A DNA stretch of 64,000 nucleotides from contig NZ_JAIZ01000806.1 in assembly GCF_000710465.2 (NCBI RefSeq), positions 78,600 to 142,599 of the forward strand. The letters are read 5' to 3'. The stretch is from Kitasatospora sp. MBT63 (lineage in GTDB: Bacteria; Actinomycetota; Actinomycetes; Streptomycetales; Streptomycetaceae). The position numbers were made by a program, and so were the translations under genes. Shown here piece after piece: positions 3,932 through 40,940 of the stretch (positions within the stretch are counted from its first letter, which is position 1; each line of letters opens with the position of its first letter). The notes beneath the pieces were generated by a model, which did no database searches, had not been told where the DNA came from, and saw only the letters and a program-made list of their open reading frames with translations.

Positions 3932-4022
3932 GGGTGGCGGACCTCGGGGTCGGGGCGGATCGGGACAGGGTGGCGGCCGGTGCCCCGGGGGTGTGCTTCC
4001 CCCGGGGCACCGGCCGGGCGGG

Positions 4023-4187
4023 TCAGTGCACGCCGGTGGTGCAGGCGCCGCAGGTGGCGCCGCAGCCGTCGTCGGTCAGGACCTGCAGGCTGGCCGCGTC
4101 GGCGGTCTCGACGGTGCGGACGTCGAGGTCGAACTCGTCGCCGACGGCGACAGTCGCCTTGGTCTCAGCCGTGATCGTCTGGGCCAT
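4023..4187 (-). CDS. FxLD-type lanthipeptide precursor peptide (54 aa)
   Basis: Small gene of 55 codons starting at ATG 4187 after a strong AGGAGG ribosome-binding site. The leader contains FDLDV at residues 19-23, the FxLD motif of a named actinobacterial class I lanthipeptide precursor family and related to the FNLD box of nisin-like leaders. The C-terminus DDGCGATCGACTTGVH supplies Cys42, Cys46 and Cys49; Ser33, Thr38, Thr45, Thr50 and Thr51 are possible dehydration sites. It lies between an Fe/2OG oxygenase gene and lanB, all on one strand. The leader/core boundary is not evident: there is no GG or GA site immediately before the Cys-rich tail. Several Asp residues near the core could be substrates of the neighbouring oxygenase. 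Confidence 0.9.
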   Translation of the reverse strand: MAQTITAETKATVAVGDEFDLDVRTVETADAASLQVLTDDGCGATCGACTTGVH

Positions 4188-18621: not shown

Positions 18622-19956
18622 ATGACAGCCACCAGGACGCTGCTGTGGGTTCTCGTGTCGGAACAACGCCACTGGAGCTACTCGGACTTCGAGCGGGCGT
18701 TCTCGGCTGCAGCTAAGCAACTGGGGAGGCGGCTGGCGGACTCGACGTTCGACAGCCTCACGGTCTCGGAGCCGACGTTTCGCCGCTGGACAGCTGGGCG
18801 GGTCGAGAAGCCGAGCGGCCACTCGGCTCAGGTGTTAGAGCACATGTTCCAGATCCCCGTTGCCGCACTGCTGGCTCCAGCGACCGATGGCAGTCTCACC
18901 TCACCACCCGTGTACGACCTCGAAAGCGATCTCACGATGACGTCACGCGACGCGTCCGACCACGCCTTCTCCCTGGCGTCCCAATCGCTGCCTGGCATGT
19001 CGCTGGACCAGCTCCGCGACGACCTCGTCACCCTGGCACGCACGTACGACCAGAAGCCTCCCTTCGATGCGTTCCGCGATCTCAAAGTGCTGCGGGAAGG
19101 CGCAGCGAGCATGCTGGACCGAACGCAGATCCCCACCCAGCGCCAAGAGCTGCTGATCATCGCCGGCCAGGTGTCAGCGCTGCTGGCGATGTCGGCCTTC
19201 GACCTCGGCTCCTTGGGCGCTGCGACGCGGCTCGCTCGCTCGGCGGCGACCTACGGCGAAGCCGCCCGCTACGGGCCGCTCAAGGCATTCGCCGACGGGA
19301 CGCTGGCTATCCTTGCCTATTGGGACGGCCGCCCTGCCGAGGCCCTGCAGCACGTCAGGCAGGCGCAGTTGCACCCAGGGCTCGGGGCGGCAGCCAGGGC
19401 CCGGCTCTTCGCAATCGAGGCACGGGCCTACGGTCATCTCGGGGACTCCGCCCGCGCGACCCGAGCGATTCGCGCAAGCGTCGACGACTGCAACGACGAG
19501 AGGGACGACCTCCACGACGGCATCGGCGGCGAGTTCCACCACGACGCCGCCCGTCTCGCTCGATCCCACGGAACCACGTGCCTCCTCCTGCGCGATGGCG
19601 TTGGCGCCGAGGAGCACACCGCTCGTGTGCTGGATCTGCAGGCCGCGCTCCCGCCGGGAAGACGGACTCCCCGGATCGAGGCCGAGGCCCGAACGGACCG
19701 CGCGGCGGCTCTGCTCATCGCCGGCGACCTGGAGGGCGCGCGGGAGATGATCACGCCGATCGCCCTGCTGCCACCGGACCGCCGGATCGCCGGGCTGGTG
19801 GAGCGCGTTCACCAGGTCCGCGCTCTGCTGACGACCGAGCCTCTTCGAACGGCAGCCGCAGCGGTAGCGCTCGGAGAGGACCTGGAGGAGTACGTCAGGG
19901 CATCCGCGCCCAAGCAGCTCGGCCCGGGTGCGAACCGTCTCACGCTCGGGGGCTGA
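18622..19956 (+). CDS. HTH regulator with TPR-like repeats
   Basis: 444 residues. The N-terminal ~75 residues resemble a diverged HTH: DSLTVSEPTFRRWTAGRVEK matches the recognition region of Streptomyces XRE-like regulators, then EHMFQIPVAALL. From about residue 150 it is helical-repeat sequence of the TPR type (LLIIAGQVSALLAMSAFDLG, AATRLARSAATYGEAARYG). ATG 18622 follows GGAAGGGG. The binding target is unknown; the palindromes in its own upstream region are candidates. It ends 55 bases before the convergent epimerase gene, with a hairpin between. Confidence 0.8.
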   Translation: MTATRTLLWVLVSEQRHWSYSDFERAFSAAAKQLGRRLADSTFDSLTVSEPTFRRWTAGRVEKPSGHSAQVLEHMFQIPVAALLAPATDGSLTSPPVYDLESDLTMTSRDASDHAFSLASQSLPGMSLDQLRDDLVTLARTYDQKPPFDAFRDLKVLREGAASMLDRTQIPTQRQELLIIAGQVSALLAMSAFDLGSLGAATRLARSAATYGEAARYGPLKAFADGTLAILAYWDGRPAEALQHVRQAQLHPGLGAAARARLFAIEARAYGHLGDSARATRAIRASVDDCNDERDDLHDGIGGEFHHDAARLARSHGTTCLLLRDGVGAEEHTARVLDLQAALPPGRRTPRIEAEARTDRAAALLIAGDLEGAREMITPIALLPPDRRIAGLVERVHQVRALLTTEPLRTAAAAVALGEDLEEYVRASAPKQLGPGANRLTLGG

Positions 19957-21049: not shown

Positions 21050-21554
21050 GGCTCAGATCTTGCCGAATCCGATAGCGGAACCGCCACTCATGACGGTCAT
21101 TCATGGCGGCAATGACTGCAGGTGCCCCAGGCGCCGGGGCGCAGAGTAGGGCCAGTGACACTCCGCCGATACGTGGATGATCGGCTGACCAAGGACGTGA
21201 GTCGTCGCTGATCTGGCGGCGATATCTCCTCACCCGGGATCCTAAAGGACCGAACGAGCGGTCACACAGAGAGATCGCTCGGTCGCTCCAGAAGGTCAGA
21301 GGCGTTCGCACTCCTGAGACTGGATCGTCCCGGGACGTCTCCGGGATGTCCCAAGACGGGGTCGTGCCGTCCCAGCGGCGAGCGCCAGCATCAACGGACC
21401 GTCAGCCGACGGTTACTGATCCGAATCTCCGCCAGGGACCAGGCCGGCTAGAGCTGTTCTGAACCAAGCCGACCGACGGCAGTTGGACGCGCGCTCACTC
21501 AAGACTTCCCGCTGGAACCCCGGCGGGAGTACCCGATGTGGAAGGAGCACAACA
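21050..21554. promoter_or_regulatory. Non-coding region with GACGTCCCGGGACG-type palindromes
   Basis: About 500 bases without supported coding. CGTCCCGGGACGTC (21326-21339) followed by TCCGGGATGTCCC (21340-21352) gives three related half-sites in tandem. The same core is found upstream at 18334 and 38431. The start of the small peptide gene is preceded by GGAAGGAG. Confidence 0.45.
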
Positions 21555-21719
21555 GTGCCCGAGAACCCGCCGACCCCGGCCAGGAGCGGCCTTCTGGTCG
21601 CCGTGGAGGTGCTGGCAAGCGTCCACGACCGGCACGACAGCGACCGGTCCGACCCCGGGACGGGCAGTTCGGGTGACGGCCCCTGGCCCGAGGGCGATGG
21701 CCTGAACAGCCCCGCCTAA
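21555..21719 (+). CDS. 54-aa peptide, possible RiPP precursor
   Basis: GTG 21555 follows a strong GGAAGGAG. The peptide begins PENPPTPARSGLLVAVEVL, then ASVHDRHDSDRSDPGTGSS and ends DGPWPEGDGLNSPA. The hydrophobic GLLVAVEVLASV segment could be a leader recognition helix; the acidic, Asp/Ser/His-rich tail could be a core. It lies 95 bases before a JmjC-type oxygenase gene that itself overlaps an aldo-keto reductase gene. This is the usual layout of a precursor plus tailoring enzymes. No known RiPP family was recognised, and a short regulatory or structural peptide remains possible. Confidence 0.6.
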   Translation: MPENPPTPARSGLLVAVEVLASVHDRHDSDRSDPGTGSSGDGPWPEGDGLNSPA

Positions 21720-21814
21720 CAGGCCAGCGCTCTGGGGCGGAGGACCCCGTAGGCCAACTCGGCGGGCTCCTCCGCCCCCCTCTCGCGCTACTAACTCGAA
21801 GGAGGAGAAGGACC

Positions 21815-23026
21815 GTGAAGCACCGTCTGGTACGGGCCGTTGAGGATGCTCTGGGTTGGGATGGCCCCGGACCTCTCGGGAAGCAGTTCGCTCGGGGCAG
21901 CCTCAGCGACATCGAGCTGGTGGGGCGACTGCTGACCCCGCAGGGACTTCTCGACATGGTGATGCGCCGCAGCCTGGCGAACCCTCAGTTCCGCTGCTTC
22001 CGCGGCGGCGAGGAGCTGCACCCCAAGGCCTACCTCAGCCCGCAGGTCTCACTCAGGGGCCAGAGCATTCCGATGGCGGACATGCGGCGGCTGGGCAACC
22101 TCCTGCGCGAGGGGGCGACGATCGTCTTGGACCAGGCGAACGTCTTCGACCCCACGATGGAGGTGGCTTGCCGGGCCATGCAGTGGTGGTCCCGGGAGAA
22201 CGTCCAGGTCAATGTCTACCTGACCACCAACGACGCTGCCGGCTTCGACCTGCACTGGGATGACCACGATGTGCTGATCATCCAATTGGCCGGCGAGAAG
22301 GACTGGGAGGTCCGGGGAGCCTCACGCCAAGCTCCGCTGTACCGCGATGCCGACCGGAACAACACGCCCAGCGATGAGGTCGTCTGGGCCGGCGCGATGA
22401 AGACCGGCGACGTCATGCACATTCCGCGCGGCTACTGGCACCAGGCGTCCCGCGTCGGCTGCGGCCAGGGGCAAAGCATGCACATGACGCTCGGCTTTGC
22501 CAAGCGGACTGGAGTGAACTGGCTGTCCTGGCTGGCTGACTGGTCCCGCGAGACCGAACTCTTCCGCCGTGATCTCGACCGCTGGGGCACCCCCGAAGAG
22601 CGAGAGAACCAGCAGCGGGAACTAGCCGCCACTGCCACACGCATCGTCGCCTCACGGAGCTCGGCAGACTTCCTGGCTGCCCGCGAACAGGAGGCCATCG
22701 CACCCAGGCACGTGCCGCTCCTGGATATCTTCGGCCCGCTGGAAGCTGCGGTGTGCATCACCGACTTCCCGCCCGTGATCGAGGAGAACGGCGAGACGGT
22801 CGACGTTCGCGGGGCCGGGAAGAAGCTCACCTTCACCGCCGAGGCCCTGCCCGCTCTGCGCATGCTTCTCAGCGGCCGGCCCGTGAGACTGGACGAGGCA
22901 GCACTCCTTGTGGGCAACGAAGTTGAGGATGTAGCGAAGATCCTGACGGAGGAAGAACTGTGCGCGAGCCTCACCCCCCAGTTGTTCTCGGGTTACACCG
23001 GTCTCGTTACGAACGCCGGCTGCTGA
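21815..23026 (+). CDS. JmjC/cupin-type Fe(II)/2OG hydroxylase
   Basis: 403-residue protein of the cupin-4/JmjC hydroxylase family (ribosomal oxygenase-like architecture). The iron triad is visible: His147-x-Asp149 in FDLHWDDHD and His209 in GDVMHIPRGYWHQA. A C-terminal winged-helix-like region (VRLDEAALLVGNEVEDVA) follows, as in ribosomal protein hydroxylases. GTG 21815 follows GAAGGAGGAGAAGG. Family members hydroxylate His or Arg side chains of proteins or peptides, so the neighbouring 54-residue His-containing peptide is a natural candidate substrate. The gene overlaps the next by 67 bases. Confidence 0.85.
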   Translation: MKHRLVRAVEDALGWDGPGPLGKQFARGSLSDIELVGRLLTPQGLLDMVMRRSLANPQFRCFRGGEELHPKAYLSPQVSLRGQSIPMADMRRLGNLLREGATIVLDQANVFDPTMEVACRAMQWWSRENVQVNVYLTTNDAAGFDLHWDDHDVLIIQLAGEKDWEVRGASRQAPLYRDADRNNTPSDEVVWAGAMKTGDVMHIPRGYWHQASRVGCGQGQSMHMTLGFAKRTGVNWLSWLADWSRETELFRRDLDRWGTPEERENQQRELAATATRIVASRSSADFLAAREQEAIAPRHVPLLDIFGPLEAAVCITDFPPVIEENGETVDVRGAGKKLTFTAEALPALRMLLSGRPVRLDEAALLVGNEVEDVAKILTEEELCASLTPQLFSGYTGLVTNAGC

Positions 23027-23817
23027 CGAACGCCCTGGACCTGGGCATCACGGCGATCGACACGAGCTTTAACTACCGTGAATTCGGGGCGCACAGGAGG
23101 CTGACGGAGATCGGCGGCGACCTCCTCCCGCACTTCACGCTGTCGACCAAGGTCGGGTTCTTCCCGGGGACCGGCAGAGCAGAGCACTCTCTCGACCCCG
23201 GTCGACTACGGCTCGCCCTGGAGCAGACGAATCGGGACCTTCAGCGAGTTCCGGACCTCGTCTTTCTGCACAACCCGGAACGCTCACTACGGGAAGCCCC
23301 AGACGCCCGCGACATGCTGGCCCAGGCATGCGCTGCCCTCAATGCCGCCACTGCGCAGGGGCTGTGCAGGTCTTGGGGAATCTCGTCCTGGAATCCGTCC
23401 TCGCTTCCCAACCTGATCGACCCGACGGTGCCGAAGCCGACTGTGCTCATGGTCCGTGCCGGCCTGCTGGTCGGAATCCGGACTCTGGATGCCGTCGACG
23501 ATCTCGCGGCCAGCTGGGGCTTGCTGGCCGATTCGATGTGGGGCATGAGCCCCTTCGGGGGCGACACCACAGACCCCGTCTGGGACAAGCTCGATCCTCG
23601 CATCTTCCTCCGGGACCAAGGGAGTTCACTGTCTCGTCCGCAGGCAGCGTTCCGGGCCGCCTACCACCTCCCACGGGTCGGGACGTTGGCTGTCGGCTCG
23701 GACAATCCCGCGCACCTTCGCGAGCTGCTTGATGCCTTGGACTGCGCTGCGGACGAGCAGGTGATGCTCGAGTACCGGGATCTCTTGCGTGAGCGGGCGA
23801 GCCGTCAACCCGCTTGA
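22960..23817 (+). CDS. Aldo-keto reductase
   Basis: 285-residue (beta/alpha)8 NADPH oxidoreductase. The catalytic tetrad is present: Asp34 and Tyr39 (IDTSFNYREF), Lys64 (LSTKVGF) and His104 (LVFLHNPE). The N-terminus is shorter than in typical members, which begin with LGxGxxG. GTG 22960 lies inside the JmjC gene, preceded by GGAGGAAG, so translation is coupled. This supports one pathway acting on the same product. The C-terminus converges on and overlaps the stop region of the minus-strand kinase gene. Confidence 0.88.
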   Translation: MREPHPPVVLGLHRSRYERRLLTNALDLGITAIDTSFNYREFGAHRRLTEIGGDLLPHFTLSTKVGFFPGTGRAEHSLDPGRLRLALEQTNRDLQRVPDLVFLHNPERSLREAPDARDMLAQACAALNAATAQGLCRSWGISSWNPSSLPNLIDPTVPKPTVLMVRAGLLVGIRTLDAVDDLAASWGLLADSMWGMSPFGGDTTDPVWDKLDPRIFLRDQGSSLSRPQAAFRAAYHLPRVGTLAVGSDNPAHLRELLDALDCAADEQVMLEYRDLLRERASRQPA

Positions 23818-24662
23818 AGTTCCTCCATGATCCGGGCGGCCATGTGCCGGGCCGGCTGCACCCGAGGATCTTCCGGATGGGCGTCAGGTCCGGTGATCTT
23901 CGAGCAGGCGAACAGCGTCATCAGCCTGCCGTCCCGGCTCTCCAACTCGTCGCGGCGCTCGCGGCGTACGCGGTCAGCCAGCGCTGGGACAGCAAGCGAA
24001 TTGGCCCACAACGACGCCGAGTCCAGACCTCGCGGCGCGTTCCCCCAGTCCTCCCAGTCGAACAAGCAGAATCGCGGGCCAGTGACATTCGCCCAGTTCA
24101 GGTCCGCGTGGGCAGGTGCCCACTGCGTGATGGTCGTCTCGAAGATGCTGGGAAAGGCGGTGCGAATGGTCTCGGTGACCACAGCCTGGGTGATGGTCAC
24201 GGTGTCGGGGGTGGCGATCCGCGTCGTGTGTTGCCCAGCCAACGCGTCCAGTGAGGAGTTCAGCGCTTGCCACCAGATTTCAGGAAGATCCGGATCGGCT
24301 GCAAGTACGCTGGTACCGACCGGGTTTCCCGGCAGGAGGCTTGTCTCGTCGGCCCGCCACATCGCCGCGCTCGATGTATCCCGCCAGGCCAGTCCAGCGC
24401 ACCAGGTGGGCTTGTCGATCGCTGTCAGGGTCGCCGCGCATTCGGTGCCGTTCCAGCCCTGGCCATCGATCCTGTCGAGTCGGCGCCGTTCGATCCGGAC
24501 CCAGGTATCACGATCCGTCCGCGCCCCGACGGAACGGCGCTTACGCAGCACCGTGTCCCGCTCCAGGCGAACCTGGAGAGCCTGCTCAACGCGGTCCAGA
24601 ACGTCGTCAACCGGCTCAACCCGCAAGTCAACAGCACGGGCAGAGGACATGGGGAGAGTCAT
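23805..24662 (-). CDS. Aminoglycoside-phosphotransferase-like small-molecule kinase
   Basis: 285 residues. The APH/ChoK catalytic loop is APAHADLNWANVT and the metal-binding motif is FCLFDWEDWG, close to HGDxxxxN and the IDWxxxxxG motif. The N-terminal region is unusual (VEPVDDVLDRVEQAL, RKRRSVGARTDRDTW) and is shared with the frameshifted paralogue at 40118-40940, including ADETSLLPG versus VDETSLLPE. The phosphate acceptor is unknown. It is convergent with the aldo-keto reductase gene and divergent from the radical SAM gene. Confidence 0.8.
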   Translation of the reverse strand: MTLPMSSARAVDLRVEPVDDVLDRVEQALQVRLERDTVLRKRRSVGARTDRDTWVRIERRRLDRIDGQGWNGTECAATLTAIDKPTWCAGLAWRDTSSAAMWRADETSLLPGNPVGTSVLAADPDLPEIWWQALNSSLDALAGQHTTRIATPDTVTITQAVVTETIRTAFPSIFETTITQWAPAHADLNWANVTGPRFCLFDWEDWGNAPRGLDSASLWANSLAVPALADRVRRERRDELESRDGRLMTLFACSKITGPDAHPEDPRVQPARHMAARIMEELQAG

Positions 24663-24882: not shown

Positions 24883-25998
24883 ATGCCTGAGCACGCGATC
24901 GACCTTCCGATGCCCGTGAGGGACCTCCGGCGCCGGATCGGTGATCTGTCCCTGCGGCTGCGCACGTCCGGATTGCAGGCGAAGCCGGGCGAGCCGCGGT
25001 TCGTCGACTTCGACAAGATCCGACTGCCGAACGGTGAGGTGGTCGGTCGCAAGAAGGTGATCGTCATGTCCGGCGGTTGCTCGGTGCCGACGTGCACGAT
25101 GTGCCCCTTCACCAACCTGAACAACTACGGTATCGAGGGCGGCAGGTCGGCGAAGAGCCTGCTGGAGCAGGTTCGGCTTACTCTGGCGCGGACCGAGGAT
25201 GAGCCGTCGTACGAGGTGCTCTCCCTCTACAACGACGGCAGCTTCTTCGCGCCGAAGGAGATCCCCCGGGACGTCCAGGTGGAGATCGCTCACCTGGTCG
25301 CGGCAGCCGGGGTGAAGCGGCTGGTGGTGGAGTCGCTGCCGCAGTTTGTCACCGAGCCGGTGCTGCGCCCGTTCGTCCAGGCGCTGGGCGAGGTGCGGCT
25401 GGAGATCGGCATCGGTCTGCAGTCCGCGGACGTTCTGGTGCGCGAGACGCTGGTTAACACCCGGATCACCCAGAAGTCCTTCGAGCGGGCGCTCGCGGTG
25501 ATGGCTGGCCTGGGAGTGGACCCGAAGATCTACCTGATGGTCAAGCCACCGTTCCTGACCGACGGCGAGGCGGTGACCGACGTCGTGGAGTCGGTGGACT
25601 ACCTGACGGGGCTCGGCGTGAGCGGGATGACGCTGTGTCCGACGCGGGTATCGCCTAACACCGTGGCGTGGGAGCTGTGGCAGGCCGGGCAGTACACCCC
25701 GCCGAACCTGTGGACGGTGGTGGAGGCGATCCGCCGGGTCCATAGGCAGCTCGCGGTGCGGGTGGCGTGCGTGAATCTGAGGGGGTCGGATTTCGAGTCG
25801 GTGTTCCCCGACGCCTGCTCGGCGTGCGCTGATGGGGTGGTGGACGCGCTGATGCGGTTCGGGGAGACCGGCGAGGCGGGCGACCTGCCCGCCGACTGCT
25901 CCTGCCGGCCGTTGCTGGAGGTGACCGGTCTCGACCACGCGGCCATTGCCGCCCGCGCGGCGCAGCAGCTGAACGTGCTGGAGCAGGCGGGTGTCTGA
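24883..25998 (+). CDS. Radical SAM enzyme, Elp3/TIGR01210-like
   Basis: 371 residues. The 4Fe-4S cluster motif GGCSVPTCTMC gives Cys66-x4-Cys71-x2-Cys74. This spacing is longer than the canonical CxxxCxxC and matches the branch that includes Elp3 and the TIGR01210 (archaeosine-related) proteins. YEVLSLYNDGSFF and GIGLQSADVLVRET are typical of that branch. A second Cys set near the C-terminus (DACSACADG, ADCSCRP) could bind an additional metal or cluster. It is the first gene of the plus-strand heptose locus and overlaps the P450 gene. The substrate is unknown. Confidence 0.88.
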   Translation: MPEHAIDLPMPVRDLRRRIGDLSLRLRTSGLQAKPGEPRFVDFDKIRLPNGEVVGRKKVIVMSGGCSVPTCTMCPFTNLNNYGIEGGRSAKSLLEQVRLTLARTEDEPSYEVLSLYNDGSFFAPKEIPRDVQVEIAHLVAAAGVKRLVVESLPQFVTEPVLRPFVQALGEVRLEIGIGLQSADVLVRETLVNTRITQKSFERALAVMAGLGVDPKIYLMVKPPFLTDGEAVTDVVESVDYLTGLGVSGMTLCPTRVSPNTVAWELWQAGQYTPPNLWTVVEAIRRVHRQLAVRVACVNLRGSDFESVFPDACSACADGVVDALMRFGETGEAGDLPADCSCRPLLEVTGLDHAAIAARAAQQLNVLEQAGV

Positions 25999-27301
25999 GC
26001 GGACCATGGTGCCCGTGGCTGGCGGGTTACCCCCGCAGCACTCGGAGCGCGGCTTCGAGGCGGATCCGGTGGGCGTCCTGGATGAGGGGCACCGACGGCA
26101 CGGGCCGGTGTTCCGGATGACGGTTGACGGAACCGACACCGTGCTGGTGGGTACATGGGCCGGGCTGGGCGAGCTGTTCGCGGCCGAGCGCGGCTGCCTG
26201 GAGGTGCTCAACACTCCGCTGGTGCACGACTTGTTCGGCCGGGCGCTGTTCAACCTTGCCGGGGACGGTCATAGCGAGGCCCGGCACCTGCTGCGTCCCG
26301 CGCTGTCCGGGCGGGCGCTGCCTGGCTACCTGTCGGCCCTGCTGGAGGTGACGGAACCGGTGGCGGCCCGGTGGGCCGACGAGGGCGCTGGGGATCTGTA
26401 CGCGGCGGCGCGCGAGGCGACCGGCGCGATGAGCGCCCGCGTGCTGCTGGGCATCGCCCCCGGGGACCCGGACGCGGCGCTATTCACCACGGACTTCGAG
26501 CGGTTCGTCGCGGCAACCGGTGCCACGCCAGGGCTGCGGCGATTCGCGGCCGACCGGTACTGGGCGGGCCGCGTGGCGCGGCGGCGCTTGCATGCCCTTT
26601 TCGTCCGGCGGGCCGCCGAGGCCGCACAGGGCGGATGTCCGGGATCGGCGCTCGTCCGCCTGGTGGCCGCGTTCGAGGGCGCTCCGGGGGCGGTGGGGCC
26701 GCTGGAGGATCACCTGTTGGCCCTGCTGATCGCGGCGCGGGAGACGACGGCGAGCCTGGTCACCTGGTGCCTGGTGGAGCTGGCGGGCAACTCGGAGCAC
26801 GCCGCGCTCGCGGCGTCGGAGGCCCGCTTGGTGTCGGCGCGGCCGGAGCTGCTGGTCGGGCGTGACCGGCTGCCGGTGCTGCGGGCGGTGCTCGCCGAGA
26901 CACAGCGTCTGCACTCCCCGAACCTGTTGGCCATGCGGAAAGCGGTCTGCCCCGTGGTGCTGGGCGGCCACCGGATCCCGGCGGGCACGCGGGTGGCGTA
27001 CTCCCCGTCGGCTGGACACTTCGACCCCGAGGTGTTCCCCCAGCCCCACTCCTTCCGGCCGGGGCGGTTCCTCGCTGGGCAGGCCCAGGGGGCGCGGCTG
27101 TGGGCGTTCGGCGGAGGCGCGCACGCCTGCCTGGGCCGGCCGCTCGCCGAGCTGATGGCCCTCACCGTCGTGGCGTCAGCCCTGGGCCGGGGTCTTCCGA
27201 GGCTGCCCGGCGGCCCGCCCGTCTGGATCCGTTACCGGCCCGCCAAGGCCCCCATCGACCCGCTGCCGTTCGTCCTCGACGACCAGGAGACCGCTTCGTG
27301 A
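25991..27301 (+). CDS. Cytochrome P450
   Basis: 436-residue class I bacterial P450. The haem loop WAFGGGAHACLGRPLAE places the thiolate at Cys380. The K-helix ExxR is LAETQRLH. The I-helix is LLIAARETTASLV, with ARETT for the usual AGxxT. GTG 25991 overlaps the radical SAM stop by 8 bases, and the gene ends in GTGA with the SHMT-like gene. It likely hydroxylates the cluster product; no ferredoxin gene is adjacent. Confidence 0.93.
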   Translation: MSERTMVPVAGGLPPQHSERGFEADPVGVLDEGHRRHGPVFRMTVDGTDTVLVGTWAGLGELFAAERGCLEVLNTPLVHDLFGRALFNLAGDGHSEARHLLRPALSGRALPGYLSALLEVTEPVAARWADEGAGDLYAAAREATGAMSARVLLGIAPGDPDAALFTTDFERFVAATGATPGLRRFAADRYWAGRVARRRLHALFVRRAAEAAQGGCPGSALVRLVAAFEGAPGAVGPLEDHLLALLIAARETTASLVTWCLVELAGNSEHAALAASEARLVSARPELLVGRDRLPVLRAVLAETQRLHSPNLLAMRKAVCPVVLGGHRIPAGTRVAYSPSAGHFDPEVFPQPHSFRPGRFLAGQAQGARLWAFGGGAHACLGRPLAELMALTVVASALGRGLPRLPGGPPVWIRYRPAKAPIDPLPFVLDDQETAS

Positions 27302-28581
27302 AACAGACCCCACCCGCCGCGCTCGCCGTCCTATGGCAGGCCGCAGCCCACCACGAGGTCGACCGACACCGGCTGCACCTGGTGCCCAGTGAGAACGGGC
27401 TGTCGCTCGGGGCCCGCGTGCCGCACCTGATGGAGGCTGCGGTCCGGTACGCCTTCCCCGGGCCTGAGGGCGGAGGCGAGAACTGGGCGTGGCCGGGCCA
27501 GCAGGATCTGGTCGGCATCGAGCGGGCCGTAGCCGGGCGGCTCGGTGAGCAGCTGGGCGCCGAGTTCGTGAACCTCAAGCCGACCTCCGGGGTGTCGGCG
27601 TTGACGGTGGCGCTCTCCGCGCTGGCCGGCCCCGGGGCGACGGCGTTCAACCTGGCGGAGCGGGACGGCGGCCACGGCTCGACCCGCTTCATCGGCACTC
27701 GGCTGGGGCTGCGGATGAAGGACCTGCCGGTCGACCCGGCCACCTGCACACTCGATCTGGACGCCCTCGCCCGTCGGCTCGGCACCGGGCCCCGGCCGGA
27801 GCTGGTGTACCTGGACGCGTTCATGTGCCTGTTTCCCATGGACCTGCCGGGGCTGCGCGAGGTGGTCGGCCCCGAGGCAGTGATCCACTACGACGCCTCC
27901 CACACCCTGGGCCTGATCGCCGGCGGCGCCTGGCAGAACCCGCTCGCCGAGGGCGCGGACAGCCTCGGCGGCTCCACCCACAAAACGTACCCCGGCCCGC
28001 ACAAGGGCCTGCTGGCCACCAATGACCCGGGGATCGCGGCTCGGCTGGACGAGCACGCCTCGCACTTCGTCTCCCACCACCATCCGGCCGACGTCGTCGC
28101 CCTGGCCGTGGCCGCCGCCGAGATGGACGAACGCGGCCCGGCGTACGCGGCGGCCACCATCATCAACGCCCGCCGCCTGGGCGCGGGCCTGGCCGAGCGC
28201 GGGTTCACGGTGTGCGGGGAGAAGGGCGGCTTCACCGACTGCCATCAGCTGTGGATCGACATCGCGCCGTTGATGGACGCCGAGGAAGCCTCCCGCCGGC
28301 TGCTTACGGCCGGGATCGTCGTCAACGCGATCCCGCTGCCACACATCACCGCCGACGCCGGGCTGCGCCTGGGTGTGCAGGAGATCACCTGGGCCGGGAT
28401 GGGCACTGCCGGAATCGACGAGCTGGCCGAGATCGTCACCGCCGTGCTGCGCGACGGCCAGGACCCGGCCGCCGTTGCGGAGCGGGCCCAGGCTCTGGTG
28501 GAGGCGCACAGGCCAGACAGCGCCGACGAGCACGTCCTGCGCGTGGCCCTTGCCGCGATCGGGATCGGGGGTGGGGCGTGA
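27298..28581 (+). CDS. SHMT-like PLP enzyme (possible transaldolase)
   Basis: 427-residue fold-type I PLP enzyme of the serine hydroxymethyltransferase family. GGSTHKTYPGPHKG places the PLP Lys at Lys229. VIHYDASHTLGL carries the PLP-ring Asp/His, and VPSENGLS the N-terminal substrate loop. It differs enough from housekeeping GlyA (VGTTTHKTLRGPRGG) to suggest a specialised role such as the L-threonine transaldolases in nucleoside antibiotic pathways (LipK) or fluorothreonine formation. GTG 27298 overlaps the P450 stop and its own stop overlaps the GT9 start, so the genes are coupled. Confidence 0.85.
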   Translation: MKQTPPAALAVLWQAAAHHEVDRHRLHLVPSENGLSLGARVPHLMEAAVRYAFPGPEGGGENWAWPGQQDLVGIERAVAGRLGEQLGAEFVNLKPTSGVSALTVALSALAGPGATAFNLAERDGGHGSTRFIGTRLGLRMKDLPVDPATCTLDLDALARRLGTGPRPELVYLDAFMCLFPMDLPGLREVVGPEAVIHYDASHTLGLIAGGAWQNPLAEGADSLGGSTHKTYPGPHKGLLATNDPGIAARLDEHASHFVSHHHPADVVALAVAAAEMDERGPAYAAATIINARRLGAGLAERGFTVCGEKGGFTDCHQLWIDIAPLMDAEEASRRLLTAGIVVNAIPLPHITADAGLRLGVQEITWAGMGTAGIDELAEIVTAVLRDGQDPAAVAERAQALVEAHRPDSADEHVLRVALAAIGIGGGA

Positions 28582-29753
28582 TCCCGGAGCAGGTCCCGGG
28601 CAAGGGCGTCTTCCTCGGGCCCGTGCACACCACTGGCACGTTCGAGATCCGCCCGGACTGCCGACACTTCGCCGGTGGGATGCCCTGCCGCCACTGGCGC
28701 CCTTGCCATGGCTGCCCGCACCATGACCCGGTCGAGTTCCGGGTGCTGATCGTGATGCTCGGCCTGCTGGGGGACATGCTCATCGCCTCCCCGCTGCCGA
28801 AGCGGATCCGCGACGAGCACCCCGGCGCGCATGTCACCTGGCTGGTGGACGAGGCAAACGCGCCGATCCCGCGGATGAACCCGTTCGTCGACGAGGTACT
28901 CGTCCACGACTGGCAGGCTGCCGCCCAGCTGCCCTCGCGCTACTTCGATGCCGTGTTCGCGTTCGAGCGGACCCCGTCGGCGGCGGCGCTGGTCGACCGG
29001 ATCGACGCCGGGCACAAGGCCGGGCTTGCCTTCGGCGGCCCTCACCACGCCCTGTATTCGATGGGCGAGGCCGCAGTGCAGTTCTTCCGGCAGAACACCT
29101 GGAACGACTACCGCACCCTCACCAACCAGCAGACGTGGACCGAGCTGTACTTCGCCGTCGCGGGATACGAGTACGCCGGCGAGCCCTACGTCCTCCAGGT
29201 ACCGGAGGCCGCCCGGCGGCGGGCGGCCGGGCTGCTCGGCGAGCGCACCGGGCCGCGGGTGTGCCTGAACCTCGGCGGGTCGCTGACCACGAAGCTGTGG
29301 CCAGCAAGGCACTGGGCCGAACTCGCCGACGCCCTGCTGGATCACGGGGCGCAGCTGGCCGTCCTCGGCGGACCAGCCGACCGGGAGGCATGCGAGGACC
29401 TGGTACGCCACCTGCGAACGCGCGGCGCCGACGAATCCCGGGTCGCGTACGCGCCGCTCAGCCTGGAGGAGGCCGCCGCGCTGCCGGGCCTCGTCGACGC
29501 GGTGGTGACCGGCGACTCCTACGGCTTCCACCTCGCCCTCGCACACGCCAAGCCGACCGTGCTGCTGCTCGGACCAAGCAATGGCGCCGAGGTCATCCCC
29601 AAGCACGTCGCGAACGTGACCGCGTTGCGCTCGACCCTGGGGTGCTCGCCATGCGCCCATCAGGTCGCGTGCGGCGGCGTTGGCGGCTGCATGGACGCCA
29701 TCGACCCGCCGACCGTCCTCAAAGCCACCCTCGGCCACCTGAGAACTGTCTGA
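28578..29753 (+). CDS. GT9 glycosyltransferase (heptosyltransferase-like)
   Basis: 391 residues. The body is a GT-B family 9 enzyme: VLIVMLGLLGDMLIASPL at the N-terminal domain, VCLNLGGSLTTKLWPARHW and VTGDSYGFHLALA in the donor domain. Two Cys-rich pieces flank it: an N-terminal DCRHFAGGMPCRHWRPCHGC and a C-terminal GCSPCAHQVACGGVGGC. These are typical of a GT9 subgroup outside LPS synthesis and may bind metal. With genes for a complete ADP-heptose route downstream, the donor is probably ADP-heptose or a derivative. BlmE of the bleomycin pathway is a related case. GTG 28578 overlaps the previous stop. Confidence 0.9.
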   Translation: MIPEQVPGKGVFLGPVHTTGTFEIRPDCRHFAGGMPCRHWRPCHGCPHHDPVEFRVLIVMLGLLGDMLIASPLPKRIRDEHPGAHVTWLVDEANAPIPRMNPFVDEVLVHDWQAAAQLPSRYFDAVFAFERTPSAAALVDRIDAGHKAGLAFGGPHHALYSMGEAAVQFFRQNTWNDYRTLTNQQTWTELYFAVAGYEYAGEPYVLQVPEAARRRAAGLLGERTGPRVCLNLGGSLTTKLWPARHWAELADALLDHGAQLAVLGGPADREACEDLVRHLRTRGADESRVAYAPLSLEEAAALPGLVDAVVTGDSYGFHLALAHAKPTVLLLGPSNGAEVIPKHVANVTALRSTLGCSPCAHQVACGGVGGCMDAIDPPTVLKATLGHLRTV

Positions 29754-29802
29754 ACCAGCCCCGCACCGCCCGGTGTTGAGCGACCACGAAAGGAGCACCA
29801 CG

Positions 29803-31527: not shown

Positions 31528-31611
31528 CTGTCCGACACCATGCGCTCACAGCCGGTACGTTGAAGCCCGGCCTCTGGCCCTCATCCGCAGCAAGCGAAGG
31601 ACCAACTCGCG

Positions 31612-32988: not shown

Positions 32989-33076
32989 GCCAGCGGGGTG
33001 CTGGCGCCAGCCAGCCAGCGCCAGCACCCGGCCGCCATCCTGACCTTCCCACCCCTGTCCTTCGAAGGAGCTGACT

Positions 33077-36000: not shown

Positions 36001-36012
36001 AAAGGCACGTGC

Positions 36013-36600
36013 GTGAAACGAGAGACTGGCGGACCGCCCGCGCGACGCCATGCAGTATTCCTCGACCGGGACGGCACACTTACCGAACCCCGCCACTACC
36101 CCTCTCATCCTGACGACCTCGTTCTCTCGCCCGGCATCGGACCACCACTGCGCGCTCTTCAGGACGACGGCGTCGCCCTGCTCGTCGTCACCAACCAGAG
36201 CGGCCTCGCGCGTGGGCTGTTCAATGAGGATGACCTGGCCGCGATGCACGAACACCTCGGCGAGCTCCTGGCCCACGAGAACGTCCGGCTGGACGGCATC
36301 TACGTCTGCCCCCACCACCCGGAGGGCTCAGTCGCCCATTTTCGTACGATCTGCGCATGTCGAAAGCCCGCCCCAGGGATGATTACCCAAGCCGCCCACG
36401 ACCTTGACCTCGACCTGGCTCAGTCCTGGATGGTCGGCGACTCCGCCTGTGACATCGAGGCTGGCCGCCGAGCCGGAACCCGCACCGCGCTCGCAGCGGG
36501 GGCGCCGCAAGCCGGTGTCACACCACACTTGTACGGGGCGACGACAGCCGACGTGCTCGACCAGGTCTGGCACGCGAAGAATCGAGGACACTGTGAATGA
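36013..36600 (+). CDS. gmhB: GmhB-like D,D-heptose 1,7-bisphosphate phosphatase
   Basis: 195-residue HAD hydrolase of the HisB/GmhB group. AVFLDRDGTL holds Asp18 (nucleophile) and Asp20 (acid/base). LLVVTNQSG is motif II. The zinc-binding cap motif CPHHPEG ... CACRKP is characteristic of this group. WMVGDSACDIEAG carries the metal-binding motif IV Asp residues. It would dephosphorylate D-glycero-beta-D-manno-heptose 1,7-bisphosphate between the kinase and adenylyltransferase steps. GTG 36013 is 12 bases after the epimerase stop. The stop overlaps the HD-domain gene. Confidence 0.9.
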   Translation: MKRETGGPPARRHAVFLDRDGTLTEPRHYPSHPDDLVLSPGIGPPLRALQDDGVALLVVTNQSGLARGLFNEDDLAAMHEHLGELLAHENVRLDGIYVCPHHPEGSVAHFRTICACRKPAPGMITQAAHDLDLDLAQSWMVGDSACDIEAGRRAGTRTALAAGAPQAGVTPHLYGATTADVLDQVWHAKNRGHCE

Positions 36601-37174
36601 CTTGCTGTCCGGATGGGCGGAAGAGATTGCGGTCCGGGAGCTTGCCGTGAGCCTGCCGCAGAGATGGGCGCACTCCCAAGGGGTAGCGCGGCAAGCATCT
36701 CGTCTGGCTCCAGCCCTCGGCCGCGCCGCCGACCTGTTGGCCGCAGCCGCAGTGCTCCATGACGTCGGCTACGCGCCTCGGTTGGCCGCTACGGGCTTCC
36801 ACCCGCTCGACGGCGCACGGTTCTTGCGCGACAGCCACGGAGCGGACGAGCACCTGACCAGGCTGGTGGCAAACCACTCGTTCGCCCTGTTGGAGGCCGA
36901 GGAGCGAGGGCTTCGAGGCGATCTAGAGCGGGAGTTCCCGGTGCCCGAGGACCGGGTGCTGGTGGACGCCCTGGTCTACTGCGACATGACGACGACCCCA
37001 ACCGGTGAGCTGACGACCCCGGCCGCCCGTCTCGCCGAGATCCTCGGCCGATACGGCGACGACAGCATCGTGGGCCGGTTCATCCGGCTAGCTGAGCCTG
37101 AAATCCACGCCGCGGCCGCCCGTACCGAGGCCCTGCTCGCAGCTGTTGTGAAGGGCCTGGCTCAGCCCAGGTAG
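36593..37174 (+). CDS. HD-domain phosphohydrolase-like protein
   Basis: 193 residues. The HD metal motif is AAVLHDVGYAPRL with His56 and Asp57; an upstream His27 (WAHSQGV) and LVANHSFA supply further ligands. Small HD proteins hydrolyse nucleotides or phosphate esters. GTG 36593 overlaps the GmhB-like stop, so it is coupled to the heptose genes and may be a house-cleaning hydrolase. It converges with the minus-strand NUDIX gene, overlapping its 3' end by 13 bases. Confidence 0.8.
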   Translation: MNDLLSGWAEEIAVRELAVSLPQRWAHSQGVARQASRLAPALGRAADLLAAAAVLHDVGYAPRLAATGFHPLDGARFLRDSHGADEHLTRLVANHSFALLEAEERGLRGDLEREFPVPEDRVLVDALVYCDMTTTPTGELTTPAARLAEILGRYGDDSIVGRFIRLAEPEIHAAAARTEALLAAVVKGLAQPR

Positions 37175-37635
37175 GGGTACTTGCCGCTGAGGTAGTCGCC
37201 GATCTGCTGGCGCATGCTCGGGTGGACGTCGTAGTCGTCCAGGTCGCGGGGATGGACCCAGCGCACTCCGTCGGCCTCGTCGTTGACGGTCGGCTCACCG
37301 CCGACGGGCCGACCGATGTAGGTGACCTCGAACTGCTGGCGGGCTTCGCCGTTGCTGCTGTAGACAACGATGTGCGCGGGGTTGGAGTAGACCCCGAGGA
37401 GGCCGGTGATCTCGGCGACGATGCCGGTCTCCTCGAGGCACTCGCGCACCGCGCAGTCGGCGGCCGACTCTCCGATGTCCTGCTTCCCGCCCGGCAGTGC
37501 CCACTGGCCGGTGTCGCGTCGGCGCTGAAGAAGGATAGCGCCGGCCGCGTCCTCGACCAGCAGGTTGCTCGCGGGTACCAGTGAGTTGGCCGCCGGGGCA
37601 GCCGGATCGCCGTAGTACTCAGTCCTCCCGGCCAT
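37162..37635 (-). CDS. NUDIX hydrolase
   Basis: 157 residues. The NUDIX box is GGKQDIGESAADCAV followed by RECLEETGI, a full match to GX5EX7REUXEEXGU. The ATG at 37635 lies inside the upstream regulator gene (17-base overlap), so the two are translationally coupled. This is the second NUDIX/XRE-regulator pairing in the window. The substrate is unknown. Confidence 0.9.
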   Translation of the reverse strand: MAGRTEYYGDPAAPAANSLVPASNLLVEDAAGAILLQRRRDTGQWALPGGKQDIGESAADCAVRECLEETGIVAEITGLLGVYSNPAHIVVYSSNGEARQQFEVTYIGRPVGGEPTVNDEADGVRWVHPRDLDDYDVHPSMRQQIGDYLSGKYPYLG

Positions 37636-38395
37636 ACGACTGGGCCCCCTCTGCGTTGTCGGTCCACGGCCGTGCGCCGTTCCAGACCGCGTCGAAGCTC
37701 TGAGCGTAGCTGTCAAACCACCCTGGCTCGGGTGCTTTCTGAAGGTGCAGCAGGGGGTTCGCGCTCGCGGGCTGGCCCCAGATGTGGGGGTTGACCAGCA
37801 GGTCCGTGTCGTACCGGAACAGCGAGTTGTAAAGGGTGGTGTCGTGCAGCCGGATTTCGCAGCCCGGCGTTGCCAGCAACGGCCGGTAGTAGGTGAGGGA
37901 GGCGCGGACCTTCGCCGCGAGCGCATCTCCGATGCCTTCCTCGCGACCTCGGACCATCACGGCCTGGCCCCGCGGGTCGCCGAAGCAGAGCCGGATCTGA
38001 ACTCCGTCCGCCGCGCGCTGGGCGAGCATCGTGGCGATTCGGGGGTTCGACTGGGCGAAGAACGTCCCCGAGAACACCAGGACGTCGATCTGCTTCACGG
38101 ACTCCAGCAGGAGGGACAGCCACATCTCCCGAGGGACACTCGCACGATCGGGGTAGGTGGATACAAGACCGGGCCCGCGGGGCTCCGTGGCTTGGCCGGC
38201 CCTGGCCCGCGGCTCAGGCCACAGGAACGTCTCGTCCACCCGCAGGTGGTGCGCAACGTTCCAGCGGTGGCGCGCGTGTGGGACGCGTCCGCCTAACCAG
38301 CGGGTCACGGTTTTGGGGTCCACCTCGCAGACGGTGGCGAGCCCCTCAGGGGAGACGCCGCGCTGAGCGAGTACGGAGCGAAGTCGCTCGTTCAC
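37619..38395 (-). CDS. XRE-type regulator with C-terminal phospholipase-D-like region
   Basis: 258 residues. The N-terminal HTH is VSPEGLATVCEVDPKTVTRW then LGGRVPHARHRWNVAHHLRV. The C-terminal ~170 residues form a recurring Streptomyces module (MWLSLLLESVKQIDVLVFSG, EIRLHDTTLYNSLFRYDTDL) resembling a degenerate PLD/DUF5919-like domain without a clear HxK motif. GTG 38395 was chosen because the HTH begins there. A GACGTCC-type palindrome lies 36-51 bases upstream and could be its operator. Confidence 0.8.
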   Translation of the reverse strand: MNERLRSVLAQRGVSPEGLATVCEVDPKTVTRWLGGRVPHARHRWNVAHHLRVDETFLWPEPRARAGQATEPRGPGLVSTYPDRASVPREMWLSLLLESVKQIDVLVFSGTFFAQSNPRIATMLAQRAADGVQIRLCFGDPRGQAVMVRGREEGIGDALAAKVRASLTYYRPLLATPGCEIRLHDTTLYNSLFRYDTDLLVNPHIWGQPASANPLLHLQKAPEPGWFDSYAQSFDAVWNGARPWTDNAEGAQSYGRED

Positions 38396-38430
38396 AGGCG
38401 ATATCCAAGCGGAGGACGACTGGACTCGCA

Positions 38431-38446
38431 AGGACGTCCTGGGACG
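38431..38446. promoter_or_regulatory. Candidate operator AGGACGTCCTGGGACG
   Basis: A perfect 10-bp palindrome (AGGACGTCCT) followed by a GGGACG half-site, in the 95-base gap between the divergent XRE/NUDIX and HAD genes. The same core occurs at 18334-18350 and, in reverse orientation, at 21326-21339. Confidence 0.5.
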
Positions 38447-38490
38447 CACGGCAGCCGGCGGAGCGCTCCGGCAATGCCTACGCTTGCCGA

Positions 38491-39189
38491 ATGCCCCTCA
38501 TCATTCTGTGGGATATCGACCACACGCTCATCGACAACGCAGGCGTGAGCAAGGAGATCTACGCTGCTGCCTTCGAGGCGGTGGCGGGGTATCCACCCAG
38601 CAGTCCTGCTGTGACCGAGGGGCGCACCGATCGCCTGATCATGGGCGAGATGTTCCGCCGACACGGTCGGACGTCGCCCGGCTGGGACATCGTGGAGGCC
38701 ACGCTGGAGGCCGCAGGGCGCGAGCGTCTGGATGAGATCCGACGTCGGGGTCACGTGCTGCCTGGCGCACGCGAGACGCTTTCGGCGGTGGCTGAGGAGA
38801 GCCAGTTCATCTCCTCCGTGCTGACCGGCAATATCGCGGCCAACGCCCGGACGAAGCTGGCAGCGTTCGGCCTCGATGGCCTGGTGGACTTGGCTGTCGG
38901 GGCGTACGGCGCGGACGACCCGGAGCGGAAGGAACTCGTGGCTGTAGCCCAGCGTCGCGTGAGTACGGCGTACGGCGTTTCCGCCGGAACTCCTGTGGTG
39001 CTGGTTGGTGACACTCCCCGGGACGTCGAGGCGGCGCTGAGCAACGGAGCCGAGATCGTCGCGGTCGCCACCGGAGCGCATACCGGCCAGGAGCTGCAGG
39101 ACGCGGGGGCTGACGTCGTGCTGGCAAGCCTGACGGGTACGGAGTTCCTCCTAAACCACTTCAGGCGCCTCGCCAATGCGCGTGGCTGA
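38491..39189 (+). CDS. HAD-superfamily phosphatase
   Basis: 232 residues of the phosphoglycolate-phosphatase-like HAD type. Motif I is ILWDIDHTL (Asp8, Asp10). Motif II is SSVLTGNIAANA. Motif IV is VVLVGDTPRDVEAAL. A helical cap lies between about residues 18 and 90. ATG 38491 is used because motif I follows almost at once. The substrate is unknown. Confidence 0.88.
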   Translation: MPLIILWDIDHTLIDNAGVSKEIYAAAFEAVAGYPPSSPAVTEGRTDRLIMGEMFRRHGRTSPGWDIVEATLEAAGRERLDEIRRRGHVLPGARETLSAVAEESQFISSVLTGNIAANARTKLAAFGLDGLVDLAVGAYGADDPERKELVAVAQRRVSTAYGVSAGTPVVLVGDTPRDVEAALSNGAEIVAVATGAHTGQELQDAGADVVLASLTGTEFLLNHFRRLANARG

Positions 39190-39265
39190 TAAGCCAGTTA
39201 CTGGGACTATGAAACGATAGCTCTCGCTCTCCCGGTCCCCGTCGGCCGACTCAGGAAGGTGCTCG

Positions 39266-40114
39266 ATGTCCTTGCAGCCGGACGACGACACCCGGCACGG
39301 CCTGACGGCAGCGCACGAGAAGGCCGCCGGATTCCTCGGCCTGGTGTGCACCGGACCGCCGGTCTTCGGCACCTCCGGAACCACTGTCGGCCGCCGGGCC
39401 GAGGACGTCTGGCTCCGGGTCTCCAGAAGCAGTCGCCGCAGGGCGCCGCGGCCGACCGGCCAGGGCGCTCTCGGCGCTGAACAGCTCGTCCCCGCATCCG
39501 TCCCGCGTCCCAGGCTCCACGACACCGTTGACTGGACGGAGGCCGCCTGGTTCTACCAGGCCGACGTCTTCGACCTGGTAGGTTCCGCGGTTTCCTCGAC
39601 CCCGGACCTCCGCGATGACCCTGGCCTGGACGATGGCTGGTGGGGCTCGCTGCGGAACGCGCTGACCGGCATCGCAGAAGCACCGGGCACGAAGATCACT
39701 CTGCGCGAGGCGTGGGTCGAAGAGGTCTTCCCGAAGTACCTCGGCATCCCGGCTCCAACCGAGCTCGAGCGGACGACCGGGCACGGTGATCTCCAGTGGG
39801 CCAACCTGACCGCCCGGCCGCTCAAGATCCTCGACTGGGAACGCTGGGGCCTGGTGCCGGTCGGCTACGACCCTGCGGTCCTGTGGGTCAGCAGCCTCCT
39901 CGTGCCCGAGGTTGCGGACCGTATCCGCACGGAGTTTGTCGACATCCTCGACACCCCTGCCGGACGCGTGGGTCAGCTCATCGCAATTGCGGAGATGCTC
40001 CAGGCCGTTGACCGCGGGTACTACCCGGAACTCGCCCCTCTCCTCGCTGACCGGGCACGTGAGCTGACCGGTGTCACCCCACCGCAGGGCACCGACGCCG
40101 GCCTCCTCCGGTAG
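39266..40114 (+). CDS. Phosphotransferase-like small-molecule kinase
   Basis: 282 residues. The catalytic loop TTGHGDLQWANLT matches HGDxxxxN and ILDWERWGLV matches the metal-binding IDW motif of the APH family. It is distantly related to the kinase genes at 23805 and 40118. ATG 39266 follows AGGAAGG. The stop is 3 bases before the next (frameshifted) kinase gene, so the two were probably one operon and may have acted as a pair. Confidence 0.75.
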   Translation: MSLQPDDDTRHGLTAAHEKAAGFLGLVCTGPPVFGTSGTTVGRRAEDVWLRVSRSSRRRAPRPTGQGALGAEQLVPASVPRPRLHDTVDWTEAAWFYQADVFDLVGSAVSSTPDLRDDPGLDDGWWGSLRNALTGIAEAPGTKITLREAWVEEVFPKYLGIPAPTELERTTGHGDLQWANLTARPLKILDWERWGLVPVGYDPAVLWVSSLLVPEVADRIRTEFVDILDTPAGRVGQLIAIAEMLQAVDRGYYPELAPLLADRARELTGVTPPQGTDAGLLR

Positions 40115-40117
40115 ACC

Positions 40118-40940
40118 ATGGACCTCCGGCAGGAGCCCGTCGATCACGTCCTGGACCAGATGGAGCAGCGCCTCGGCATGAGGTTGGACCGGCGCAGCGT
40201 GGTGCGGAAGCGCCGGACGGTCGGAGACGGCACCGACCGTGGCAGCTGGACCCGGGTCGAACGCCGCCCCTGGGCACGGGAACAGGGCTGGGGCGGATTC
40301 GAAGCCGCAGCGGCGTTGGCCAGCGTGGCGATGCCACGCTGGTACGGGTCGGCGGCATGGCAGGACCCGGACGACCGGGCGATCTGGCACGTGGACGAGA
40401 CCTCGCTGTTGCCTGAGCTCCCGGTCGGGGCCGCAGTGGTGACCGTCGACCCGGAGCTGCCGGACGATTGGTGGCGCGCTGAACGCCTCGCTGGCAGTGC
40501 TGGCCGCTCAGCGAACGGCTCGGGCGGCGGCCCCGGACACCGAACGGATTACGCAGCAGCTGGTCGACGACACAATCAAGGCCGCCTTCCCCGGAGCGCA
40601 CGAAACTCGGGTGAAGCACTGGTGTCCTGCTCACACCGACCTGAAATGGGCGAACGTCACCGGCCCTGGTGAGTTCTGCATGTTCGACTGGGAAGACTGG
40701 GGAATGGCGCCACGCGGACTCGACTCGGCGTCGCTGTACGTCGCCTCCCTCGCCCTACCGGCGCTCGCGGACCGGGTACGCAGGGAGCGCCAGGCAGACC
40801 TCGAGAGCAGCGACGGGATGGTGATACAGCTGTTCGTGCTGGCGAAGATCGTCGGACCACGCGCCGGTCCGAACGACCCGCGAATGGGGCCGGCGCACCG
40901 GGAGGCTGCGCGGCTGATCTTCGCTCTTCAAGGGGACTGA
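40118..40940 (+). pseudogene. Frameshifted phosphotransferase, paralogue of 23805-24662
   Basis: The N-terminal half (MDLRQEPVDHVLDQMEQRLG to DPELPDDWWR) reads in one frame and the C-terminal half (ALNASLAVLAAQ, CPAHTDLKWANVT, FCMFDWEDWG) in another. Alignment by eye to the intact paralogue (WWQALNSSLDAL) puts the break at about 40472-40480, in TGGTGGCGCGCTG. Losing two bases from a CGCGCG run explains it. Both halves keep their motifs, including the catalytic HTDLKWAN loop, so this is a recent mutation, a sequencing error or (less likely) programmed frameshifting. Confidence 0.8.

Follow-up and report, generated by a model that had tools for sequence, protein, structure and literature searches.

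The window, that is, the whole 64,000-nt stretch of Kitasatospora sp. MBT63 DNA analysed here, contains a group of four adjoining genes encoding a short peptide, a JmjC-type oxygenase, an aldo-keto reductase (AKR) and a kinase-like protein, with a regulator-like gene upstream and further kinase-like genes downstream:

18622..19956, + strand: NsdA-family TPR-like regulator (NCBIfam NF053720, 98.7 bits)
21540..21547, + strand: Shine-Dalgarno sequence GGAAGGAG of the peptide gene, 7 nt ahead of the GTG
21555..21719, + strand: 54-aa precursor-like peptide gene (GTG at 21555, stop TAA at 21717-21719)
Residues 1-31 of this peptide: presumed leader, with the motif GLLVAVEVLASVHDR (border inferred from alignment)
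Residues 32-54 of this peptide: presumed core, SDPGTGSSGDGPWPEGDGLNSPA (border inferred from alignment)
21815..23026, + strand: JmjC_2 Fe(II)/2-oxoglutarate (2OG) oxygenase, 403 aa, ribosomal-oxygenase-like (GTG start; Pfam PF08007, E 3e-22)
22745..22996, + strand: C-terminal winged helix of the oxygenase in its predicted structure (residues 311-394, strands then three helices), a candidate leader-binding RRE-like domain
22960..23817, + strand: AKR, 285 aa (GTG start; PF00248, E 2e-15; D34, Y39, K64, H104)
23805..24662, - strand: APH-fold kinase-like protein with intact HxDLxWxN...DWE (from alignment, AlphaFold2 model and fold search)
36593..39189: block of HD (+), NUDIX (-), HTH/DUF5919 (-) and HAD phosphatase (+) genes, of uncertain membership in the module
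39266..40114, + strand: second kinase-like gene, intact, of the type-B kind (profile E 2e-73; Pfam APH E 1e-3, below cut-off)
40115..40937, + strand: third kinase-like gene, of the window type, split over two frames (profile E 1e-37 and 2e-61 for its two ORF pieces)

Related loci were assigned to type A (the window type), type B (a second type) or a control set of paralogous JmjC_2 loci from the same genus. When the small ORFs of the window were scanned in six frames with the peptide profile, 21555-21719 was the sole significant ORF (E 4e-21), the second-best reaching E 0.14 with profile pA and 0.017 with profile pAB. Its Shine-Dalgarno sequence bears out the strong ribosome-binding site that the initial annotation had reported ahead of a 54-residue peptide, and a similar AAGGAAGGAG precedes the peptide start in most window-type loci. 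With the window peptide as reference, dN was below dS in 30 of 33 codon comparisons; the exceptions were L007 and L056, together with L051, for which dS was not computable (pN 0.45, pS 0.77). Pfam and NCBIfam yielded no family name for any peptide tried, and on two plasmids the small ORF is annotated in RefSeq as a hypothetical protein. Cys is absent from the window peptide, from 34 aligned type-A peptides and from the type-B peptides read; one plasmid-borne type-A peptide (L145) has a single Cys. Within type A, the core is conserved about as strongly as the leader.

The metal triad of the JmjC enzyme, H147-x-D149...H209, is invariant together with K162 in all 32 aligned sequences (types A and C), and acidobacterial relatives are about 30% identical to it. 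Both by profile and by fold, using an AlphaFold2 model with a pLDDT of 91, the nearest solved structures are NO66, MINA and YcfD. The features of ribosomal oxygenases (ROX), namely the JmjC domain, the C-terminal winged helix and the HxD...H triad, are all found in this protein, in agreement with its first description as an Fe/2OG hydroxylase of the ribosomal-oxygenase type. The modelled element order of the winged helix (strands, then three helices) appears to be that of an RRE (PMC12710340), and a type-B relative gives a weak ROXA-like_wH match. Because winged helices are common to ribosomal oxygenases, this domain is compatible with leader binding and is no proof of it.

The AKR gene begins 67 nt before the JmjC gene ends, and the D34-Y39-K64-H104 tetrad is kept in 21 of 21 aligned AKRs, so the overlapping reductase gene with an intact D-Y-K-H tetrad was also correctly recognized at the outset. 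The kinase-like gene at 23805-24662 is a fourth partner that was absent from that earlier description. It converges on the AKR gene in the window, with a 13-nt overlap of their 3' ends, and its strand and order differ by type, being co-directional in type B. Across an alignment of 17 relatives, H185, D187, N192 and D202 are invariant, and HxDxxWxN...DWE is kept in all 14 members checked. Pfam and NCBIfam gave no name for this gene, a PDB profile search with the kinase alignment returned weak matches only, none of them a kinase, and P0003 matched no PDB chain at E 1e-4. Fold matches of its AlphaFold2 model (pLDDT 85) were aminoglycoside phosphotransferases and the RiPP protein TvaE, the latter (8jsu) at rank four. 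The homologue TvaE(S-87) is described as lacking the kinase catalytic residues (PMC12291118), unlike the window protein, which retains them and may be regarded as a putative kinase. PADLOC returned no match for the JmjC, AKR, kinase or regulator genes.

The census comprised 40 type-A loci (26 initial loci, ten from the genus, the window and three plasmids), 31 type-B loci and 19 controls; 20 weaker JmjC_2 loci of the genus had been fetched for the control set, of which L112 turned out to be a type-B module with a peptide and was moved accordingly. The outcome named beforehand as refuting the proposal, namely that homologous enzyme pairs lack a conserved small gene beside them, was not observed. 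Of the 40 type-A loci, 38 have a homologous peptide directly 5' of the JmjC gene (36 by profile at a fixed distance, L145 by profile and L056 by reading), as do all 31 type-B loci (30 by profile, L015 by reading), the profile-based counts including the loci from which the profile was built. Neither peptide nor kinase was found at any of the 19 controls, where peptide distance was measured from the HxD motif and, in the 12 controls missing this anchor, absence was taken from other scans. Peptide and kinase are both present in 34 of 34 loci from L115 to L148, among them all 14 (L135-L148) that were fetched after the profile had been built.

The search over the first 74 loci with the window peptide (tblastn) gave matches in 18 of the 26 initial type-A loci, and reading of upstream ORFs added peptides in L044, L045, L046, L048, L051, L052 and L056; this set has a peptide in 25 of 26 loci, the exception, L054, having a broken JmjC gene. 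The other type-A locus without a peptide, L084, encodes a JmjC protein only 42% identical and also lacks AKR and kinase. When 16,876 six-frame small ORFs from 94 loci were ranked with a profile of 30 type-A peptides, ranks 1-43 fell to type-A loci, and type-B peptides and one Planctomycetota peptide followed below.

All 31 type-B loci have a kinase-like gene, as have 36 of the 40 type-A loci; of the remaining four, L049 and L084 lack it, and the contigs of L051 and L055 end. The AKR, counted from the ORF behind the JmjC gene and by tblastn, was detected in 21 of the 26 initial type-A loci, with a short match only at L049; it is absent from L044, L045, L048 and L056, and the contig of L055 ends before it. 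Behind the JmjC gene of the controls it was found in 0 of 19. Since the AKR is missing from several type-A loci, it is not obligatory.

Precursor-like peptides of different types have a similar leader motif (types A, B and C), and their core motifs vary with the JmjC lineage. The type-A leader reads GLLVAVExLxxVHDR, followed by SDPGQGSSGDGPWPGGDGLN or its relatives as core, and cores in distant actinomycetes include GDPSTSAGGDGHGDAGGDGLNIPE and SDGADGDTGENRDG; type B has GDGLLVARxKVAAARSR and then SDGGSTGRTDTND or close variants. In a Planctomycetota metagenome-assembled genome (L069), the peptide has an A-like leader with a B-like core, and JmjC, AKR and kinase accompany it in the type-B order. 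Among Acidobacteria, all 12 loci having at least 500 bp of upstream sequence (L057-L059, L061-L065, L067, L068, L073 and L074; L066, L070 and L071, with too little upstream sequence, were left out) show, ahead of the JmjC gene, an ORF in which many (S/A)DGTD-like units follow a GLLLSVxPL-type leader, and the JmjC gene occurs there without AKR and kinase. At a Paceibacterota locus (L072), a short ORF ending in SDYGDANDTAND was recognized by eye.

Taxonomically, a type-A JmjC gene was detected at E <=1.9e-82 in 11 of 70 genomes of the genus, the source genome included, one of the 11 (G020) being an outlier without the module, and at E 1e-60 in one of 296 genomes drawn from the phylum, namely the window's own. 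Type B at E 1e-60 is present in 63 of 297 genomes of the family, covering 8 of 17 genera. Plasmid records matched in 39 cases at E 1e-20, plasmids of Streptomyces and Pseudonocardia carry the complete set, and the four records opened all contain peptide, JmjC and kinase; pSV2 of Streptomyces violaceoruber, a laboratory species, carries a module, and the record of a Nocardia plasmid match lists cupin and aldo/keto reductase genes.

The NsdA-family gene at 18622-19956 is a possible regulator of the module. Such a regulator lies next to the peptide in all nine long type-B loci, and only 16 NsdA-family genes exceed the cut-off in the window's genome. Across the census its frequency was 26 of 31 for type B, 12 of 40 for type A and 1 of 19 for the controls, in stretches of about 4 kb for most type-B loci, 4.6-6.9 kb for controls and up to 17-20 kb for type A; given these unequal lengths, the type-B rate is the more telling.

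The genes, their conservation and linkage, and their intact catalytic motifs are observed features of these loci, and a short encoded peptide lies beside potential modifying enzymes and is conserved together with them, as in RiPP pathways. We therefore consider it quite probable that the module is a RiPP pathway of an undescribed type, composed of precursor, JmjC enzyme, AKR, kinase-like protein and often an NsdA-family regulator; the conserved small peptide would very probably be the precursor of a modified peptide. The possible new RiPP type envisaged by the initial annotation thus gains support, on comparative-genomic grounds, from a homologous and positionally fixed small gene. If true, this would be a new RiPP class in which a JmjC protein resembling ribosomal oxygenases supplies the hydroxylation, alongside an AKR and a kinase-like protein.

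JmjC oxygenases such as FIH, YcfD and MINA/NO66 hydroxylate Asp, Asn, Arg and His residues. Orn residues are likewise reported as their targets (PMC12707348, PMC12257519). According to the mechanism proposed here, the hydrophobic leader helix GLLVAVExLxxV would dock onto the JmjC protein's C-terminal winged helix; the active site of this enzyme would hydroxylate core residues, most likely the conserved Asp (or Asn) of S/T-D-G-type motifs at its beta-carbon. Because Asp is shared by the cores of all types, even where JmjC stands alone, beta-hydroxy-Asp is a reasonable first guess. The kinase-like protein might phosphorylate core Ser/Thr residues, as happens in class V lanthipeptides, or the new hydroxyl, and the AKR might oxidize or reduce a hydroxylation product. 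Since a HopA1-type lyase was not seen among the typed neighbours, the phosphate might be retained or be carried by the new hydroxyl. We infer all of these steps (leader binding, every reaction and the reaction order) as well as the cleavage site and the product. The suggestion that the Asp/Ser/His-rich tail of the peptide offers substrates holds for Asp and Ser and fails for His, which lies in the leader part and is variable. Iron chelation or calcium binding by the Asp-rich cores was another role considered.

A further and rather improbable extension is that these are cross-phylum Asp-modified RiPPs whose small product, with a beta-hydroxylated and perhaps phosphorylated S-D-G-type core, acts as a signal inside the cell or over a short range and is sensed by the neighbouring NsdA-family TPR regulator. 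If true, actinomycetes would possess a modified-peptide signalling system on chromosomes and plasmids, and the acidobacterial oxygenase would decorate long Asp-rich multi-core chains.

What counts against a RiPP pathway is that the core does not change faster than the leader, unlike in fast-diversifying antibiotic RiPPs. This similar conservation would also suit an unmodified small partner, regulator or signal that recruits or controls the JmjC, AKR and kinase proteins on another substrate, as would the NsdA-type TPR regulators next to the peptide in the long type-B loci and the lack of a conserved protease or transporter. However, the acidobacterial leader followed by many short Asp-rich units has the layout of a multi-core precursor, and the leader motif is kept while core motifs vary with the JmjC lineage, which makes the unmodified partner an unlikely explanation. 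No conserved dedicated protease or transporter was found among the neighbouring gene clusters compared, so export and leader removal are left unexplained by the RiPP pathway.

Considerably less probable is an ordinary ribosomal oxygenase, related to NO66, MINA and YcfD as its closest structures indicate, preceded by an upstream leader ORF or a chance ORF. The small ORF has homologues in other phyla and evolves under purifying selection, it accompanies none of the 19 other JmjC_2 loci of the genus, AKR and kinase are in constant company, and the patchy, partly plasmid-borne spread is unlike that of a housekeeping ribosomal modifier. This gene linkage also speaks against a ribosomal protein as the substrate. 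The least credible alternative, in which the module genes are tailoring parts of the downstream cluster at 24883-36600 (radical SAM, P450, SHMT-like, heptosyltransferase and carbamoyltransferase genes), draws on proximity and a shared strand in the window, yet membership in this heptose cluster was rejected on synteny, as the nearest relative, L075 (JmjC 91% identical), keeps regulator, epimerase and module and not the cluster genes, and none of the first four cluster genes, which were compared, falls in a gene cluster to which any of the other 45 loci contributes.

Compared with known systems, a RiPP pathway of this composition shares individual elements with several of them. NO66, MINA53 and YcfD are alike in fold, JmjC core and C-terminal winged helix; they are encoded by single housekeeping genes, whereas the enzyme here is linked to a precursor-like peptide, an AKR and a kinase. 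Bacterial homologues among PF08007 proteins with RRE-like folds have been noted in RiPP-like contexts (PMC12710340, 2025), and these too have a JmjC_2 domain fused to a winged helix in RRE order; a precursor, AKR and kinase are described here and not in that article's passages on its proteins. Since this JmjC family also occurs beside acidobacterial multi-core peptides, it offers a direct way to ask whether a leader-binding winged helix is common to ribosomal oxygenases and those of RiPP pathways.

The JmjC or cupin-like ornithine hydroxylases BipG, BpmG and PbsQ of biphenomycin-type RiPPs (PMC12707348, PMC12257519) resemble the window enzyme as JmjC-type 2OG oxygenases acting, in our case presumably, on a RiPP precursor. 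As described there, biphenomycin clusters have an MNIO, an arginase, a B12-radical SAM protein and an FRF core, whereas the present loci have an AKR, a kinase-like protein and an Asp/Ser/Gly core. An FRF-like motif is absent from the cores, and MNIO, arginase and B12-radical SAM genes are not among the widely shared typed neighbours.

LxmK is a kinase-fold protein of the class V lanthipeptide/thioamitide kind. Others are SprPT and TvaE/RosX (PMC7794033, PMC12291118), and these pathways are similar in placing an APH-fold protein beside a RiPP precursor; they pair the kinase with a HopA1-like lyase and use a core Cys for the thioether ring, whereas the window peptide has no Cys. Among the neighbours shared most widely, as far as Pfam or NCBIfam assigned them to a family, none is HopA1-like.

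A search of the open-access literature, a scope outside which most subscription papers fall, found no description of the module, its precursors, the AKR-kinase pairing or the cross-phylum set, and core sequence strings matched no paper. A JACS paper reportedly deals, to judge by its title, with 2OG-dioxygenase macrocyclisation in RiPPs, and overlap with the module is possible. The initial annotation named no RiPP family with this enzyme pair; JmjC hydroxylases as such are known in RiPPs (BipG/PbsQ). With a short precursor and few enzymes, the pathway should be easy to test heterologously.

Other parts of the window and of related loci also deserve mention. The HD-NUDIX-HTH-HAD block adjoins the peptide gene on its 5' side in 12 of the 26 initial type-A loci; in the window the distance is 13 kb. 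The second kinase-like gene (39266-40114) has an intact catalytic motif and no adjoining JmjC, AKR or peptide gene, and the third (40115-40937) looks like a broken copy; the region 36593-40937, with the block and kinase-like genes and without JmjC, AKR and peptide, is possibly a remnant of further modules. In four Streptomyces loci (L036, L037, L039 and L047), the region between the HAD gene and the peptide (about 4.5-7.2 kb) contains a radical SAM-like, a kinase-like, a methyltransferase-like and a CYTH-like gene (CYTH was named from the L032 member, the three other names from sequence starts). At the control loci L109, L110 and L113, two JmjC_2 ORFs lie close together and the peptide is absent.

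The separate-looking cluster at 24883-36600 encodes a RaSEA-like radical SAM protein (TIGR01210, below cut-off), a P450, an SHMT-fold enzyme, a family 9 heptosyltransferase, a carbamoyltransferase, a GDSL/hexapeptide protein, a fused SIS-PfkB-cytidylyltransferase, an epimerase and a HAD phosphatase, and its product looks to be heptose-bearing and carbamoylated. At the opposite end of the window (1-4187, - strand), a 54-aa peptide (4023-4187) with FDLDVRTVE and a Cys-rich tail precedes genes for proteins of 1000 aa and 310 aa; these genes look like those for a lanthipeptide precursor of the FxLD type and the enzymes that modify it.
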